This document shows, in pieces, positions 13,475-38,491 of a DNA stretch of 43,187 nucleotides (its first letter is position 1; each line of letters opens with the position of its first letter). The stretch is from a virus. The stretch covers positions 1 to 43,187 of IMG/VR virus record IMGVR_UViG_3300042923_001270; one strand, written 5' to 3'. The position numbers were made by a program, and so were the translations under genes. Under the pieces are notes generated by a model, which saw only the letters and a list, made by a program, of their open reading frames with translations, had not been told where the DNA came from and made no database searches.

Positions 13475-15157
13475 CTAATAAGTTCTTACTTTGAACATTC
13501 CTGGCTTTATTGGCGCAAGTTCTTTTAATTCGTCAACTCTGTATAATCCACAAACAAAAGCTTGGAAACCATCCGTTTTTCTACGAATCGGCTCTATCTT
13601 TTGATATTCTTTATTACCATCTTTTTTGATTACAACAAGAACGTTATTGGTGTACCAACGCATTAAAGGATTATCTCCAAATATAAACAGTTGGTTAGCA
13701 AACCCAATTTCAATTCTCGGGGCTAGTAAACTGTGAATGGCTTTCGGATTCCTAATGACTTCCACTTCAAATCCTGCCTTAACAAATAATGGCTTCAGGA
13801 TTTCCATTCGGAAATTATCCCCAATGACTTTTTTGATTTTGTAGTACTTTCGTTTCTCAACAAACCAGTCTACAATCTTCTGAGGATCTATCGTTTCTCC
13901 ATCAAGAACTGTAAGGAGACCATCCTCTTCCCATTTGCGGATTGGAGCAAATTTTTTCTTGCCTGCCGTTTCTGCATCCTGCTTTTTTGAATAACTATAA
14001 AACTTATCTACAAACTCTTTTCGAACATATGAATGCGTGATAAATGGATATTTCCCTTCTTGCTTAAACACAAGTCCACATGCTGCAAAATCTCGAATAC
14101 TAGCATAGTCTATACAACCAATACATTCTTTTCCTAACAAATCCGGAACAGTTTGGTTAGTTGCTTCGATTTCTTCCCATTTAGCTACAGCACGCTCCAA
14201 GTCAGTGATAGGTAAATTCATGCGCTTAGTCATAAATTCTTCACGGTTACTTGGATCGTCTTCTAGAGCTTCGTACTCTTCCATGATGGTATCGAGTAGA
14301 CCTTGAGCGTATTCTGTTAATGGCTTCGAAAGCATCGGGTTTGCTAATTCCCAATTGTCAGGATCATTTACTTCATTTTCATCGTTAAGTTTACAGATGA
14401 AAGGAAATAAGGCGTTGGGGCGAGCTTCACCTTTCAACACTTTCATGGCCAATGCCTTCATGTTATCTAGGAAACCGTCTCGAACATAACCATCGGTACC
14501 AATATAAAACTCTCTTGGGTTCGCCTTTTTACCAAGACCAGATATATGAACTCTAACATCTTTATTACTTTCAAACTGGTGAATCTCATCAAAGACAACA
14601 GCACCATCACGCAAACCGTCTTTTGTTTCTCCGTTCGAGGTTCTGAACTTTAAAATAGCATTCATAACCTTGTTCGTTATTTTCTCTTTTGTCCTAGCAA
14701 ACATGGCTTTTAATGGGCCACTTTTACCGATAACATTATAAGTTTCTTCAAAGGAGGTTTTTGCTTGTTCTTCTGAGTTCGCAACGATTGACACGTTGTA
14801 TTCTTTAATTCCATGAAGTGGACTAATTAAGAAATGTGTGATAACCGAAATTAAACCGTTCTTTCCAGCACCACGCGCAATAAGCCAAAGATGCTTACGG
14901 TAAAATACACGATTGTTTTTTTTATAAAATAAAAAGACGAAAGCTATGAGAAACTTATCAAATGAGACCAGTGGAAAATACCACTTCTCACCAAATCGGA
15001 TACAGTTCTCTATCATTTCGTCATCAAAATATAAATCATCACGACTGAACACATGCTCCTCTAAATATTCGATAAGCATGATGCGTTCTTTATTCAGTTT
15101 TATCTTTCCAGATTTCCAGAGATTAATATATTCTTCAACATACTTGTTAATAATCAA
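13475..15157 (-). CDS. terL: Terminase large subunit
   Basis: 560 residues. The ATPase domain has a Walker A-type loop RGAGKNG (95-101) and Walker B VVFDEIH (187-193, with the catalytic acidic pair). A nuclease domain follows with an acidic strand CIGCIDYASIRDFAACG near residue 350, and DNFRMEILKPLF further on. Together these match the phage TerL_ATPase/TerL_nuclease architecture. The start is TTG 15155-15157, overlapping the small-subunit stop (TTTGA), with no good ribosome site, so translation is probably coupled. It cuts and pumps DNA into the prohead. Confidence 0.95.
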   Translation of the reverse strand: MIINKYVEEYINLWKSGKIKLNKERIMLIEYLEEHVFSRDDLYFDDEMIENCIRFGEKWYFPLVSFDKFLIAFVFLFYKKNNRVFYRKHLWLIARGAGKNGLISVITHFLISPLHGIKEYNVSIVANSEEQAKTSFEETYNVIGKSGPLKAMFARTKEKITNKVMNAILKFRTSNGETKDGLRDGAVVFDEIHQFESNKDVRVHISGLGKKANPREFYIGTDGYVRDGFLDNMKALAMKVLKGEARPNALFPFICKLNDENEVNDPDNWELANPMLSKPLTEYAQGLLDTIMEEYEALEDDPSNREEFMTKRMNLPITDLERAVAKWEEIEATNQTVPDLLGKECIGCIDYASIRDFAACGLVFKQEGKYPFITHSYVRKEFVDKFYSYSKKQDAETAGKKKFAPIRKWEEDGLLTVLDGETIDPQKIVDWFVEKRKYYKIKKVIGDNFRMEILKPLFVKAGFEVEVIRNPKAIHSLLAPRIEIGFANQLFIFGDNPLMRWYTNNVLVVIKKDGNKEYQKIEPIRRKTDGFQAFVCGLYRVDELKELAPIKPGMFKVRTY

Positions 15158-15471
15158 ATCAGATCAGCATCCGAATACGTTTCTTCTTTAGTACGAGGGG
15201 TGTCCCCTTCACTTATAAAGTTGAATGATTTTTCGATTGCCAATAGCTGCTGGTTTACTTTCATTTTGTCATTAACGGCTGGGTGGCTTTTTACGAACTT
15301 TTGAGCCCCGTTTTCTGTTATAACGGTGGCACCTTTTTTTATTTCTTTATCCAGCTGTTTATTAAGTTTTACCAGGCTAATGTATCTCTCTACTTTTTCA
15401 ACTTCAACCAAATCATCTTTATCAATTCGGCTCATTAATTGCTTTTGAAGATCTGAAATATTTACTGCCAT
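15154..15471 (-). CDS. terS: Terminase small subunit, P27 family
   Basis: 105 residues, mostly helical, with the features of the P27-type small subunit: an N-terminal helical part with KVERYISLVKLNKQLDKEI and a conserved FVKSHPAVNDKMKVNQQLLAIEKSF segment. It should recognise the packaging site and load TerL. ATG 15469-15471 is preceded by a run of twelve G's then AAAT, which serves as an extreme but workable ribosome-binding sequence. The neighbours HNH upstream and TerL downstream support the call. Confidence 0.88.
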   Translation of the reverse strand: MAVNISDLQKQLMSRIDKDDLVEVEKVERYISLVKLNKQLDKEIKKGATVITENGAQKFVKSHPAVNDKMKVNQQLLAIEKSFNFISEGDTPRTKEETYSDADLI

Positions 15472-15704: not shown

Positions 15705-16031
15705 TCACCACCTCTCCTCATTCACAAACTTAGGTTTACCTTTTGGCTTATTCAACTCCCAAACACTCAACCGATCATGCACTTCGTTATGACACGTATT
15801 ACATAGGCACTGAAGATTATCTAAGGTCAGCGCAAGCTCTGGATGAGGTTTAACTTCTTTCATGTGATGAACACAATCCGCTTTACGATACTTACCTTTA
15901 GCCTTACATAACTGACATTCGTTGTTGTCTCTTAGCAACGCTTTCTTGCGTAAGGCTTTCCATTCCTTTGACATATAAAAGGTTATAAGCTTATCGGATT
16001 GGATTAACTTAATGATGTCTGATGTTTTCAT
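15705..16031 (-). CDS. HNH endonuclease beside terminase
   Basis: 108 residues. Two zinc-binding CxxC pairs (ECQLCKAKG at about 38-46 and QCLCNTCHNEVHD near 75-87) bracket the HNH core (DCVHHMKEV, then LDNLQCL and HNEVH). HNH proteins next to the terminase genes are needed for cos cleavage and packaging in HK97-type phages, so this enzyme probably works with TerL rather than as a homing enzyme. ATG is preceded by TTTGGAGATGTTCTAA. Confidence 0.9.
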   Translation of the reverse strand: MKTSDIIKLIQSDKLITFYMSKEWKALRKKALLRDNNECQLCKAKGKYRKADCVHHMKEVKPHPELALTLDNLQCLCNTCHNEVHDRLSVWELNKPKGKPKFVNEERW

Positions 16032-16485: not shown

Positions 16486-16566
16486 CTTTTCTTTTCTTTT
16501 CTTTTGTGTACTTATTGCATACAAAAACCCTAGTTATTGTTACATAAATGTAGGTTATTGTTACAT
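16486..16566. repeat. CTTTT tandem and 13-bp direct repeats at 21-bp spacing
   Basis: CTTTT occurs four times in tandem (16486-16505). Just beyond, GTTATTGTTACAT occurs at 16533-16545 and again at 16554-16566, exactly 21 bp (two helical turns) apart. Both lie between the tRNA-like element and the zinc-ribbon promoter, so they may be phased protein-binding sites. Confidence 0.6.
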
Positions 16567-16584
16567 TAACTATTTTTTTAGGTA

Positions 16585-16804
16585 TTTGCGGGTAAGGATT
16601 TGCACCTTACATGGCTAACATTCCTACAACAGGTAACACCATCAGATACTTACCAAAACCCTACTTCAGCTTCTTTCAGCCTTCAGGTCCTATAATAAAT
16701 ATCCCTAACAGGTTCCTCTACAGCCTTATTCATTCCGTAGCTTGTTCCTAACCAAAGTGTATTTAGCCTTATGTTTAAGCGTCTACCTATTCCGCCACCG
16801 CAAA
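16585..16804 (-). ncRNA. Structured RNA with tRNA-like ends, about 220 nt
   Basis: No convincing gene occupies this stretch. On the minus strand the two ends form a tRNA-like body: an acceptor-like helix TTTGCGG (16804-16798) with CCGCAAA (16591-16585); then TG and a D-arm GCG-GAATAGGTAGA-CGC (16795-16779) with the D-loop GG; then a helix GGCTAA (16768-16763) with TTAGCC (16618-16613), extended by CAT/ATG; then a T-arm TAAGG-TGCAAAT-CCTTA. The D-arm closely resembles a tRNA-Leu. About 150 nt of extra sequence sit where the anticodon arm would be, including hairpin GGTAA...TTACC (16632-16654). There is no tmRNA tag, no encoded CCA and no group I core. T-loop position 55 is G, and one extra C lies between the T-stem and acceptor. 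Seen: pairing. Inferred: a functional RNA. Confidence 0.65.
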
Positions 16805-17202: not shown

Positions 17203-17913
17203 TTAAGATATTAATTCTTTAACCATGCATTCTAAACTATTAAGATATTGGTCAACTTTCCCTTTTACTAGTCTCATGTCTGTGCTACTGTTTGTATGTC
17301 CCATATGATTTCTTATCCATGTATATATCGTTTCATTAACAGTTATTTGATTTCCTTTAATATCTTTTGTTCTTTCACACATTTCAATACTTGGAGAATG
17401 TTTAATGATATAGCTTTCAACTTCTTGTTGAGTTTCCAAAATACCATATAAAATACTATATAAAAACATATATCTTCCAAAAGGATCTGAAACATTCATT
17501 GCAGATTTATACAATCTAAAATTAATGTTATTTCTTAATTTATCAATTAACTCAACATTATTTATACTTTTCTGCAATTCTCCATATCCATCACCTAAAA
17601 TGCCATGAGAAGAAACTGAAATATTGGAATAAAGAAATACTTGGTTATTATATCTTTCTAATTCAAGATTTTTAATAACATGCCCATATAGAAATAACAT
17701 TAGATTAATTACGTCACCAAGAGGCTGAGCTGTTATTTTTTTAGCATGGTCTATATCATCATTTAAATCATTTTTAAGATTAAACTTAATATAAATATAT
17801 TTTTTCTCTTTGGTGTAAATTTCAATAGTATCAATCCCCTCTATGTAATAACTTAAAGAGATGGGTTCTATTGAATAATCGGTAAAGGTCCCACAATATT
17901 GTATAAAAGACAT
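17203..17913 (-). CDS. HEPN-type protein, possible RNase (236 aa)
   Basis: The start is ATG 17911-17913; the upstream GTG would leave no spacing to AAAGGAGA. The N-terminal 100 residues are beta-rich (DTIEIYTKEKKYIYIKFNL). The C-terminal half is helical and ends with ETIYTWIRNHMGHT, where R-x4-H matches the RNase motif of HEPN domains, especially the MauJ/ApeA-like group (RNxxGHT). HEPN RNases often serve in abortive infection. The gene has its own terminator and lies between ArpU and terminase, a usual place for cargo genes in prophages. A defence role against competing phages is inferred. The N-terminal half may be the sensor. Confidence 0.6.
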   Translation of the reverse strand: MSFIQYCGTFTDYSIEPISLSYYIEGIDTIEIYTKEKKYIYIKFNLKNDLNDDIDHAKKITAQPLGDVINLMLFLYGHVIKNLELERYNNQVFLYSNISVSSHGILGDGYGELQKSINNVELIDKLRNNINFRLYKSAMNVSDPFGRYMFLYSILYGILETQQEVESYIIKHSPSIEMCERTKDIKGNQITVNETIYTWIRNHMGHTNSSTDMRLVKGKVDQYLNSLECMVKELIS

Positions 17914-17971
17914 TTTTCTCACTCTCCTTTAGTAAGCATTCTACTTAAAGAGATAATTTCCTCCTTTTTAC

Positions 17972-18133
17972 AAATAAAAATAGCTGATGCTTCCACCCTA
18001 CTCCTACCGGCTGGGCCATCAGCTGCTTTTAGTTATTAAACAGAGGCATAAGAAAAAGACGATGCATCCCGCTCAGGTACACCGTCTTTTCCAGCAACTA
18101 TATTCTCATAGAGCAACTTTCCACATTACTCTA
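17972..18133 (-). ncRNA. Three-hairpin transcript ending in a terminator
   Basis: Downstream of the iteron promoter come, in transcription order, hairpin C (18133-18109, TAGAGTAA/TTGCTCTA), hairpin A (18090-18054, AAAAGACG/CGTCTTTT around a GC-rich loop) and hairpin B (18024-17982, AGCTGATG/CATCAGCT). B is followed by ATTTTTATTT and resembles a terminator. No gene of more than about 20 codons with a ribosome site is visible. This could be a short stand-alone RNA or a structured leader of the HEPN-like gene. Confidence 0.45.
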
Positions 18134-18134
18134 C

Positions 18135-18205
18135 AATATAAATTTAACACATTTAAACCCTAATGCTCTGCCGTCTTTCTGCCATTTTTCTGCCTTTTGT
18201 CTGCC
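18135..18205 (-). promoter_or_regulatory. Iteron-type activated promoter: four GGCAGA at 11-bp spacing
   Basis: Minus strand GGCAGA occurs at 18205-18200, 18194-18189, 18183-18178 and 18172-18167, each 11 bp from the next. A TATATT -10 box at 18140-18135 has a poor -35 (TTAGGG) 17 bp upstream, and the last iteron abuts that -35. This geometry is typical of an activator stacking on one face of DNA next to RNA polymerase. The nearby ArpU-like regulator is the natural candidate for that activator. Confidence 0.55.
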
Positions 18206-18210
18206 AGTAA

Positions 18211-18840
18211 TTATTTTTTTCCTGTTATTTCTTTGGTTAATGATTCGTATTCGTCGCTAAGTCTTCTTTCGTGTTTATCTAATTTCGACATCAATTCATC
18301 AATAAAGGTTTTTTCTATAAAATCTAAGACTTCTGGGTTCTTTTTATCTGACCTAATTTCTTCCCATACCGCATTGATAAAAGATTGGATGTCATTGAAT
18401 ATATACCAATCAATATCCGCTGAATCCTCTAAAAGCTTATTAAACTCGTCTAAGAATTCAATTAAAATCTTATGTGCATCTTCCTCTATCCTCTTTTCAA
18501 TTTTTTTATAATTTTCATCAAAACCAATGTCCCATTTTGATATTTTCCCACTTGTTTTATGGATTATATATTTAACTGACTTTAATTTACTTATTTTTAT
18601 CCCCATGTTTTGTAAAGTATTAATTTCTTGTTGTTTTTGTAAACTTAGTATTATCGATTGTTGTGATGACTTAATGGTGTATTGAACACCGATTAAAGTA
18701 ATTACTCCGCCTGTTATGGACCCCACAAAAGCTAGCACGTCAACTTCACCTAATTTGAAATTAAAAAGTATCATTAGTAATACATTAGAAAAAACTAAAA
18801 CTAAGATTATGCCTTTGTAGATTTCTTCATGAATCTTCAT
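18211..18840 (-). CDS. Two-pass membrane protein with coiled-coil domain
   Basis: About 209 residues from ATG 18838-18840; an ATG four codons earlier would abut its AAAGG. Two hydrophobic segments (GIILVLVFSNVLLMILFNFKL and VLAFVGSITGGVITLIGVQYTI) lie in the first 65 residues. A cytoplasmic helical domain with many Lys, Glu and Asp residues follows. I do not recognise a family. The design (two membrane helices plus a charged helical tail) resembles small phage exclusion or sensor proteins. It precedes the iteron promoter and a HEPN-type gene. A link between the two proteins is possible but unproven. Confidence 0.6.
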   Translation of the reverse strand: MKIHEEIYKGIILVLVFSNVLLMILFNFKLGEVDVLAFVGSITGGVITLIGVQYTIKSSQQSIILSLQKQQEINTLQNMGIKISKLKSVKYIIHKTSGKISKWDIGFDENYKKIEKRIEEDAHKILIEFLDEFNKLLEDSADIDWYIFNDIQSFINAVWEEIRSDKKNPEVLDFIEKTFIDELMSKLDKHERRLSDEYESLTKEITGKK

Positions 18841-18888
18841 TTTATATTTCATCCTTTAATGTTATATTTTTGATATTTATAGAATACC

Positions 18889-18913
18889 AAAAAAACACCC
18901 AATTAAGGGTGCT
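18889..18913 (-). terminator. Intrinsic terminator overlapping the ArpU stop
   Basis: Minus strand: GCACCC-TTAATT-GGGTGT then seven T's. The TAA stop of the ArpU-like gene is in the loop, the same design as at 16049-16073. Confidence 0.8.
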
Positions 18914-19355
18914 CTTCATTCTTGTAAACTTCAATTCTTAAAATAAATGCTAATTTATAAAATATCCTTGCCTTTAATCGATAGTATTTCCGCTCACTAT
19001 ATCCAGTATCATTATAGAGCTCATAATCATAAACTTCCTCATCGCTAAGGTATCTTTTAATAATAAGCTCCCGTTCTTTAAAAGCTAAACGATTAACAGC
19101 CTTACGGATCCATTCAATGTACTTATCACGTTCCCTTTCAAAATCCACTTTTTCAATCACTGCACTTTCTGTAGATGAATGAAACTGGTTGCTAAATGCA
19201 GGAGGACTAAGAGAATAGGATGCAGTAATCTTTGGTAGCTTCTCTTCTGGAACAGTAAGTAAATAAAAACGATATTTTTCTAATGCAGCTTCCACAGCCA
19301 TTTTTGTTTTTTCTCTATCGATTTCTGGAAGCTTAAAAGATAATTGTTCACTCAC
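18903..19355 (-). CDS. ArpU-family late transcription regulator
   Basis: 150 residues. The N-terminal part (PEIDREKTKMAVEAALEKYRFYLL) and the C-terminal sigma-70-region-4-like helices (LAFKERELIIKRYLSDEEVYDYELYNDTGYSERKYYRLK) are the two hallmarks of the ArpU family, which controls packaging and lysis genes in Gram-positive phages. Placement between the early genes and terminase is standard. The start is GTG 19353-19355, 8 bases after GGGAGG. TATTATAAC at 19371-19379 is a possible -10 box. It may act at the iteron promoter at 18.14 kb or at the 16.42-kb promoter. Confidence 0.85.
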   Translation of the reverse strand: MSEQLSFKLPEIDREKTKMAVEAALEKYRFYLLTVPEEKLPKITASYSLSPPAFSNQFHSSTESAVIEKVDFERERDKYIEWIRKAVNRLAFKERELIIKRYLSDEEVYDYELYNDTGYSERKYYRLKARIFYKLAFILRIEVYKNEEHP

Positions 19356-19610: not shown

Positions 19611-19784
19611 ATGTGTAAATTAAAACAATGTGATCTTTTAATTCAAATTAATAAATTACGAAACAAAATGATTGAAACTGGTTTAACAAAGGGCCTGAAT
19701 AACAAGGAAACGATCAAGCTCAGTAGAGATTTAGACCAATTGCTTTACACATATCAATTACAATCCCAAAGAATATTAAGATGA
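19611..19784 (+). CDS. Spo0E-family aspartyl-phosphate phosphatase
   Basis: 57 residues: MCKLKQCDLLIQINKLR at the start and LSRDLDQLLYTYQ near residue 39. This matches the Spo0E helical hairpin with its S-x3-D signature (S-R-D-L-D). Spo0E proteins dephosphorylate Spo0A~P and so delay sporulation. ATG is preceded by AGAGGTTTAACT. The gene faces the opposite way from the early and late operons and has its own strong terminator (19910-19950), so it may be expressed in the lysogen. Keeping an infected or lysogenic cell out of sporulation is the inferred purpose. Confidence 0.8.
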   Translation: MCKLKQCDLLIQINKLRNKMIETGLTKGLNNKETIKLSRDLDQLLYTYQLQSQRILR

Positions 19785-21460: not shown

Positions 21461-21581
21461 GACACCACATCCTATTTTCCTTCATCTAATAACTAGCCCA
21501 TACCAATGAAATAAAAGAGGAATTACCTCAGTTTATGTCGAATTGTCAATTAGCATTATTTTAATAAAGGAGAAGATTTTG

Positions 21582-22292
21582 ATGAAAAGTTGTTTTTTTG
21601 TTAGCCCGATAGGAGCCGAAGGCACACCTCAACGTCTACGTTCAGACACTGTTTTAGAATTCATTATTGTGCCAGTATGTGAAGAACTAGGGTTCAAAGT
21701 TACTCGTGTTGATAAACTATTTAGCGTAGACAGAATTGATAACACTATATATGAACATTTAACAAAAGCTGATCTTGTAATTGCTGATATGACAGAACAT
21801 AATCCCAATGCTTTTTACGAGATGGGGTTTCGTCATGCCTTAGGAAAACCATTAATTCCTATTATGGAAGAAGAAACAAAGATCCCTTTTGATGTTGCAA
21901 ATTTAAGGACAATCTCTTATGTTACTAATGATTTAAAAAAAGCTAGTGATGCTAAAAATCGATTAAAAGAAACAATTATTTCTTTCAATATCCAAGAAAA
22001 GGATAACGATCAAGACTCAACAGAATCTCATAATGAACAACCCCTTACTAACGTAGTACCATATTTACTCAACATCCAAGACAGCCTTTCAGAACTTAAA
22101 TCGCTTATAAAAGAGCGGAATCATGAAATGGCAGCCCAAACAATCGATTTAGCTATGGGACAGATTCAAAAAAACACATCAACACCAGAAATGAAAATAG
22201 CTGAATTAATATTCTCTAAAGCATTTGAAAACCCTAATGAGATGGAAAAATTCATAAATATTGCCCAAAAATTTCAAAACACAAAAAGTTAA
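21582..22292 (+). CDS. Nucleoside 2-deoxyribosyltransferase / TIR-like protein
   Basis: 236 residues from ATG 21582, preceded by AAAGGAG. The N-terminal 115 residues form a Rossmann-like domain: CFFVSPIGAEGTPQRLRSD, then ADLVIADMTEHNPNAFYEMG, then IPFDVANLRTISY. This is the signature of the deoxyribosyltransferase-like family found in many immune-type operons; Glu80 in NPNAFYEMG is at the catalytic position. Such domains act on nucleosides or NAD, and some are TIR-related. A charged linker follows, then a C-terminal helical region that may oligomerise or sense. It is the only plus-strand gene within the early operon and has its own terminator, so it looks like acquired cargo. A defence or exclusion role is inferred. 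Confidence 0.6.
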   Translation: MKSCFFVSPIGAEGTPQRLRSDTVLEFIIVPVCEELGFKVTRVDKLFSVDRIDNTIYEHLTKADLVIADMTEHNPNAFYEMGFRHALGKPLIPIMEEETKIPFDVANLRTISYVTNDLKKASDAKNRLKETIISFNIQEKDNDQDSTESHNEQPLTNVVPYLLNIQDSLSELKSLIKERNHEMAAQTIDLAMGQIQKNTSTPEMKIAELIFSKAFENPNEMEKFINIAQKFQNTKS

Positions 22293-38444: not shown

Positions 38445-38491
38445 AATACTAATACTAATACTAATACTAATACTAATACTAATACTAATAC
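38445..38491. repeat. Hexanucleotide microsatellite, AATACT x 7.8
   Basis: AATACT is repeated in tandem, 47 bases in all, ending 36 bases before the start of a 60-residue membrane protein gene. Copy-number change would alter spacing upstream of that gene without changing its reading frame. Confidence 0.95.

Follow-up and report, generated by a model that had tools for sequence, protein, structure and literature searches.

How does a virus open its late genes from a promoter that lacks a good -35 box, and why should hairpins stand directly behind such a promoter? These questions are raised by a locus in a 43187-base virus record (hereafter the window, i.e., the whole stretch of DNA that was analyzed), whose late genes lie on the minus strand. 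At the entry to these genes, the minus strand carries four copies of GGCAGA (18200-18205, 18189-18194, 18178-18183, and 18167-18172), and from 18205 to 18167 it reads GGCAGACAAAA GGCAGAAAAAT GGCAGAAAGAC GGCAGA. An earlier reading of the sequence alone, hereafter the sequence-only reading, had described four copies spaced 11 bp apart, and this description was borne out: all four are exact, and exact four-copy arrays of any 6-mer, at periods of 7-30, arose in none of 60 dinucleotide shuffles. On its own, the hexamer GGCAGA is not overrepresented in the window (15 occurrences against an expected 13); the array is the only one of GGCAGA type, and the only other exact 6-mer array of four copies is an AATACT-type one at 38445, with a period of 12. 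The features of the locus are collected in Table 1.

Table 1. Features at the entry to the late genes of the window, in order of position.
Feature	Position	Strand	Basis
Large terminase gene, follows the small terminase gene	13475-15157	-	
Small terminase subunit	15154-15471	-	Weak match below the Pfam gathering score
HNH gene, precedes the small terminase gene	15705-16031	-	
MauJ-like ORF, 239 aa, first after the hairpins	17203-17922	-	Pfam PF17419, 1.4e-8
Second terminator-like hairpin, stem 18024-17982, tail ATTTTTAT	17975-18024	-	Folding
Terminator-like hairpin 1, core 18089-18055, T-rich tail	18048-18092	-	Folding; counterpart in 80/91 loci
TATATT, possible secondary -10	18135-18140	-	Sequence; not the position conserved in relatives
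Extended -10, TGT-TAAATT	18141-18149	-	Exactly 17 nt past the last repeat unit, spacing as in relatives
ArpU operator (predicted), GGCAGA x4, 11-bp period	18167-18205	-	Sequence and counterparts downstream of relatives' arpU
ORF between arpU and operator, 213 aa, without known family, likely cargo gene	18211-18852	-	
arpU, 150 aa, late transcriptional activator	18903-19355	-	TIGR01637, 131.6 bits (cut-off 43.1); PHROG 248, transcriptional activator

The arpU gene, which is the only part of the window for which a search found DNA similarity to named phages, lies about 0.7 kb upstream of the array, with one ORF between them. Downstream, the order is MauJ-like ORF, small ORF, zinc-ribbon ORF, HNH gene, and terminase genes, the HNH and terminase genes being the start of the late operon proper. 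In addition, two ORFs on the strand opposite to the late genes deserve mention: a small one (19611-19784, plus strand) resembles Spo0E-like sporulation regulators (PF09388, 1.1e-12), and another (21543-22292, plus strand) matches a TIR effector model of PADLOC (8e-17) and is possibly defense cargo.

The sequence-only reading had suggested looking for GGCAGA arrays of 11-bp period near arpU in related phages. Loci containing arpU were gathered from phages, viral contigs, and bacterial genomes, and the 142 left once redundancy was removed, which are related and thus not independent of each other, were scanned for four-copy arrays with periods of 8-25, in which the four copies had to agree in 6 or more of 11 columns. 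Such arrays were found: those with a period of 11 occur downstream of arpU in 39/142 loci, any other period accounts for 0-2, and upstream of arpU the same scan gave 3 with period 11. A relaxed array score returned the same picture, with period 11 dominant. A scan weighted for GGCAGA, in which the selection ignored the hairpin, gave 91 loci with both an array and a -10, and these have in common a module composed of the array, 17 nt, and an extended -10 (TGN-TATnAT), with the consensus GGCAGA-17-TGnTATgATGgTA. In 81 of the 91 loci, TGN follows the last unit at a distance of exactly 17 nt. Among the carriers of the module are PK5.2 and NIIg3.2, phages that infect Geobacillus or Parageobacillus. 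One locus, L115, has two period-11 arrays downstream of a single arpU, of GACAGA type at about +1165 and of GGCAGA type at about +3117.

The protein that reads the array was approached through covariation between the letters of the repeat and 79 aligned ArpU proteins, with scores that are inflated by shared ancestry. For repeat position 2 (G or A), the ArpU column that tracks best is residue 122; for position 5 (G or C), residues 121, 123, and 105 tie. Residues 121-123 fall within the C-terminal helix-turn-helix, and the region of residues 120-123, which is S-E-R-K in the window, lies in the C-terminal portion, which is similar to sigma region 4 and matches sigma factors weakly. The pairings are SER with GGCAGA, SES with GACAGA, and both S-Q-R-S and S-H-R-H/N with GGCACA; the GGCACA form is found in two separate clades of the tree, and the substitutions differ between them (Q-R-S versus H-R-H/N). 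A few loci break the rule, namely L101, L145/L147, L115, and L160. SERK is the likely specificity segment, and a contact segment that ranks at the top and has arisen convergently argues well for recognition of the repeats by ArpU. To judge from these comparisons, the array is almost certainly the operator of the adjacent ArpU.

As for the promoter, the sequence-only reading had taken TATATT for the -10 and had placed the start of transcription near 18128. The alignment of relatives moves both, because the -10 that it identifies is one hexamer upstream, at TGT-TAAATT (18149-18141), and the start is accordingly predicted near 18134. Given the 17 nt up to TGN, the last repeat unit falls at about -38 to -33, and in this way it fills the usual place of the -35. 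A scan with consensus promoters listed no sigma-70-type promoter at the array, as expected for a promoter with no -35. The more general proposal, of an array for activator stacking beside a promoter without a good -35, as the target of the ArpU-like protein, is supported by the comparative data, and it is very likely that the promoter depends on its activator.

Past the promoter, the leader (17960-18130) folds with z = -3.9. The three consecutive hairpins proposed for it, the last with a T-run, were recovered in part: two are strong (18055-18089, z -4.6, and 17982-18024, z -2.1), and both have a T-rich tail, while the first of the proposed three is weak. A search of the window and the leader against Rfam gave no match at gathering score and none that was convincing at a relaxed E-value.

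The hairpin turns out to be a general property of these loci. A terminator-like hairpin with a U-tract lies within 120 nt past the -10 in 80 of 91 loci (none was detected within this distance in the other 11), compared to 6 for shuffled sequences, 8 upstream of the array, and 14 further downstream. Hairpins of -12 kcal/mol or better are present there in 72/91 loci, and the interval between arpU and the array has 0.04 per 120 nt; in 55/89 loci, the window among them, that interval holds no strong terminator. The U-tract starts at a median of +44 from the predicted start (quartiles 42-51), and the window is an outlier in that its hairpin comes later than usual, at an offset of 57 from the -10 versus the typical 23-37. 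In 73/80 loci, at least five of the 6 nt that follow the core are T, and 40/80 combine this with at most two A opposite, so that the U-tract is not merely a longer stem. The 80 loci have 57 distinct cores, with several pair types per stem position, as judged by counts of pair types and not by MAFFT alignment, which means that structure and U-tract persist while the sequence changes. Terminator-like hairpins also lie past the promoter of the streptococcal ArpU phages CHPC926 and L182, although generality among streptococci rests on few sequences, as the broad Streptococcus scan gave 3 loci; in TP901-1 and in Listeria B054, no hairpin terminator was found close to the promoter. The earlier idea of an activator-dependent short RNA or leader is hence half settled, in that a promoter-proximal, terminator-like hairpin is general. 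That this hairpin is a promoter-proximal terminator is probable, and its most likely role would be to insulate the late genes. No report of such a terminator at this place was found in the literature searched, and an earlier description is possible.

Comparison reveals that array, spacing, -10, hairpin, and U-tract are conserved and that ArpU covaries with the repeats; from this we infer binding, activation, termination, and the manner of read-through as follows. The array would substitute for the missing -35 by bringing the host RNA polymerase to TGT-TAAATT, and late transcription would begin near 18134, heading for the terminase genes. The intrinsic terminator would halt early or basal transcripts ahead of the late genes, with release of a short RNA, some 80-90 nt long here and about 45-55 nt in most relatives, and the polymerases that pass it would express the late genes. 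The near-fixed place of the terminator just downstream of the promoter suggests that it acts on, or has to be passed by, the promoter's own transcripts; if early transcription were its sole object, a site upstream of the promoter would serve better. The simplest reading is partial read-through under strong activation. Taken as a whole, this combination of an ArpU-operator array, an activated late promoter, and an intrinsic terminator passed by some polymerases is the account that we favor, as reasonably likely.

Other accounts of the same elements have to be weighed. The hairpin might be a 5' stabilizer or a processing site of the late mRNA instead of a terminator, in agreement with its position close to where the late transcript is predicted to begin; a stabilizer needs no U-tract, but one is present in 73/80 loci, often unable to pair with upstream A, which makes this reading rather unlikely. 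A second possibility, on the unlikely side as well and given slightly less weight, is antitermination in the manner of lambda Q, in which ArpU, or a promoter-loaded complex containing it, rides the polymerase past the terminator. The near-fixed downstream distance, which makes the terminator unavoidable for a late polymerase, speaks for it, as do the weak matches of ArpU to sigma-factor sequences and the sequenced rinA-to-terL RNA of phage 80alpha, whose transcripts cross the corresponding region (PMC10686824); however, activation alone can explain the array, there is no constitutive -35, unlike in pR', and in TP901-1 the promoter occurs with no such terminator behind it. The broader form of this proposal, that the ArpU family comprises late activators that are also antitermination factors, with an array-loaded polymerase passing the terminator, is slightly more doubtful still. 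If it holds, the textbook strategy of lambdoid phages, and lambda Q itself, would have a counterpart in phages of Gram-positive hosts.

Third, the promoter might serve mainly to make a functional small RNA, the late genes being transcribed from another promoter further down, and the two terminator-like hairpins past the promoter of the window would suit this proposal. It is nonetheless improbable, given that the late genes of phi13 are driven by a repeat-dependent promoter, and that the hairpin sequences are unconserved, unlike those of most regulatory small RNAs. Lastly, the repeats might be the iterons of a replication origin, which tandem spaced repeats bring to mind, or else a chance array, and both were rejected as exceedingly improbable in view of the shuffles (0/60), the fixed distance from array to -10 in relatives, and the place of the array between arpU and the terminase genes. 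With ArpU-activated transcription and partial read-through as the favored account, the conserved layout of promoter plus terminator at the late-gene entry raises the question of how the late polymerase passes.

The same region holds other structured RNAs. A tRNA-like RNA is located at 16585-16804 (minus strand) of the window and is present in loci L184-L221 as well; it is made of a 5' part similar to leucine tRNA, a long insert, a T-arm GGTGCAAATCC, and a matching acceptor 3' end, and it has no normal anticodon arm. A 26-base pattern of it occurs in 38 viral contigs, where the conservation of the 5' part is partly forced by the pattern itself, and compensatory changes preserve the pairs of the acceptor and the T-stem. 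None of the elements in these 38 contigs was called a tRNA by ARAGORN, and in the 9 loci that were tested against Rfam none was detected. Possibly, it represents an undescribed family of phage RNAs. Just past it, ATGTAACAATAAC occurs twice, about 21 bp apart (16532-16573, minus strand). Structured RNAs recur between the late activator gene and terminase in other phages, at 1986-2563 in L175 (TP901-1), 4193-4586 in L177, and 3500-3680 in L179; their kinds include a tRNA plus a tRNA-like stretch (TP901-1), an annotated GOLLD (phiARI0285-1), and a tRNA-like RNA (the RinA phage PK3.5).

Regarding known systems, the statement that operators of this kind are little studied was right in part only, because direct repeats that lie upstream of the late promoter are reported to be the sites through which Alt (TP901-1) and Ltr (phi13) act (PMC13123087). 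In phi13, deletion of the repeats or mutation of ltr abolishes the activity of the late promoter, and the Alt site of TP901-1, reported to span -76 to -32, is made up of four imperfect repeats (PMC13123087). Directly after alt, the gene of a proven activator, we read, with the register set by eye, four imperfect 11-bp repeats, 17 nt, and TGA-TATACT, a layout that is the same as that of the window and fits the reported Alt site; the units are degenerate (GGGATA, GACACG, GGCACG, and GGAGTG), and the promoter-proximal terminator was not found. The Ltr/P23 pair of phi13 (LtrC family) likewise has the activator gene directly upstream and a late promoter that needs four repeats, but these are of 18 bp, and its paper mentions no terminator or hairpin. 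In the window, direct repeats upstream of the -10 replace the -35, and the promoter points into terminase and structural genes on its own strand (HNH, small and large terminase). Because of the comparative module, the ArpU covariation, and the TP901-1 layout, the array joins the Ltr/ArpU kind of late promoter.

A further parallel is offered by 80alpha, whose activator belongs to the RinA family. Two GGCAG units 11 bp apart follow rinA, together with a -10-like TATTATGAT, and three leader hairpins, the last terminator-like with T6, lie between the RinA-type promoter and terS; it differs in having only two clear units and a hairpin about 70 nt from the -10. RNA sequenced from this phage spans rinA into terL (PMC10686824). 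Its transcripts must therefore cross the terminator region, by whatever means.

Finally, in phage lambda, the late promoter pR' is followed by the terminator tR', which late transcription must pass; pR' does not need Q for its activity, and the step that Q affects is elongation. The window resembles this arrangement in the terminator-like element downstream of its late promoter and departs from it at the promoter, where the activator array takes the place of a -35 and activity without the regulator is not expected. For ArpU, a widely annotated phage regulator, these results supply a predicted operator, a rule for its spacing, and a specificity code of three residues that can be tested, set within a layout that recalls, at its downstream end, the pR'-tR' pair of lambda.
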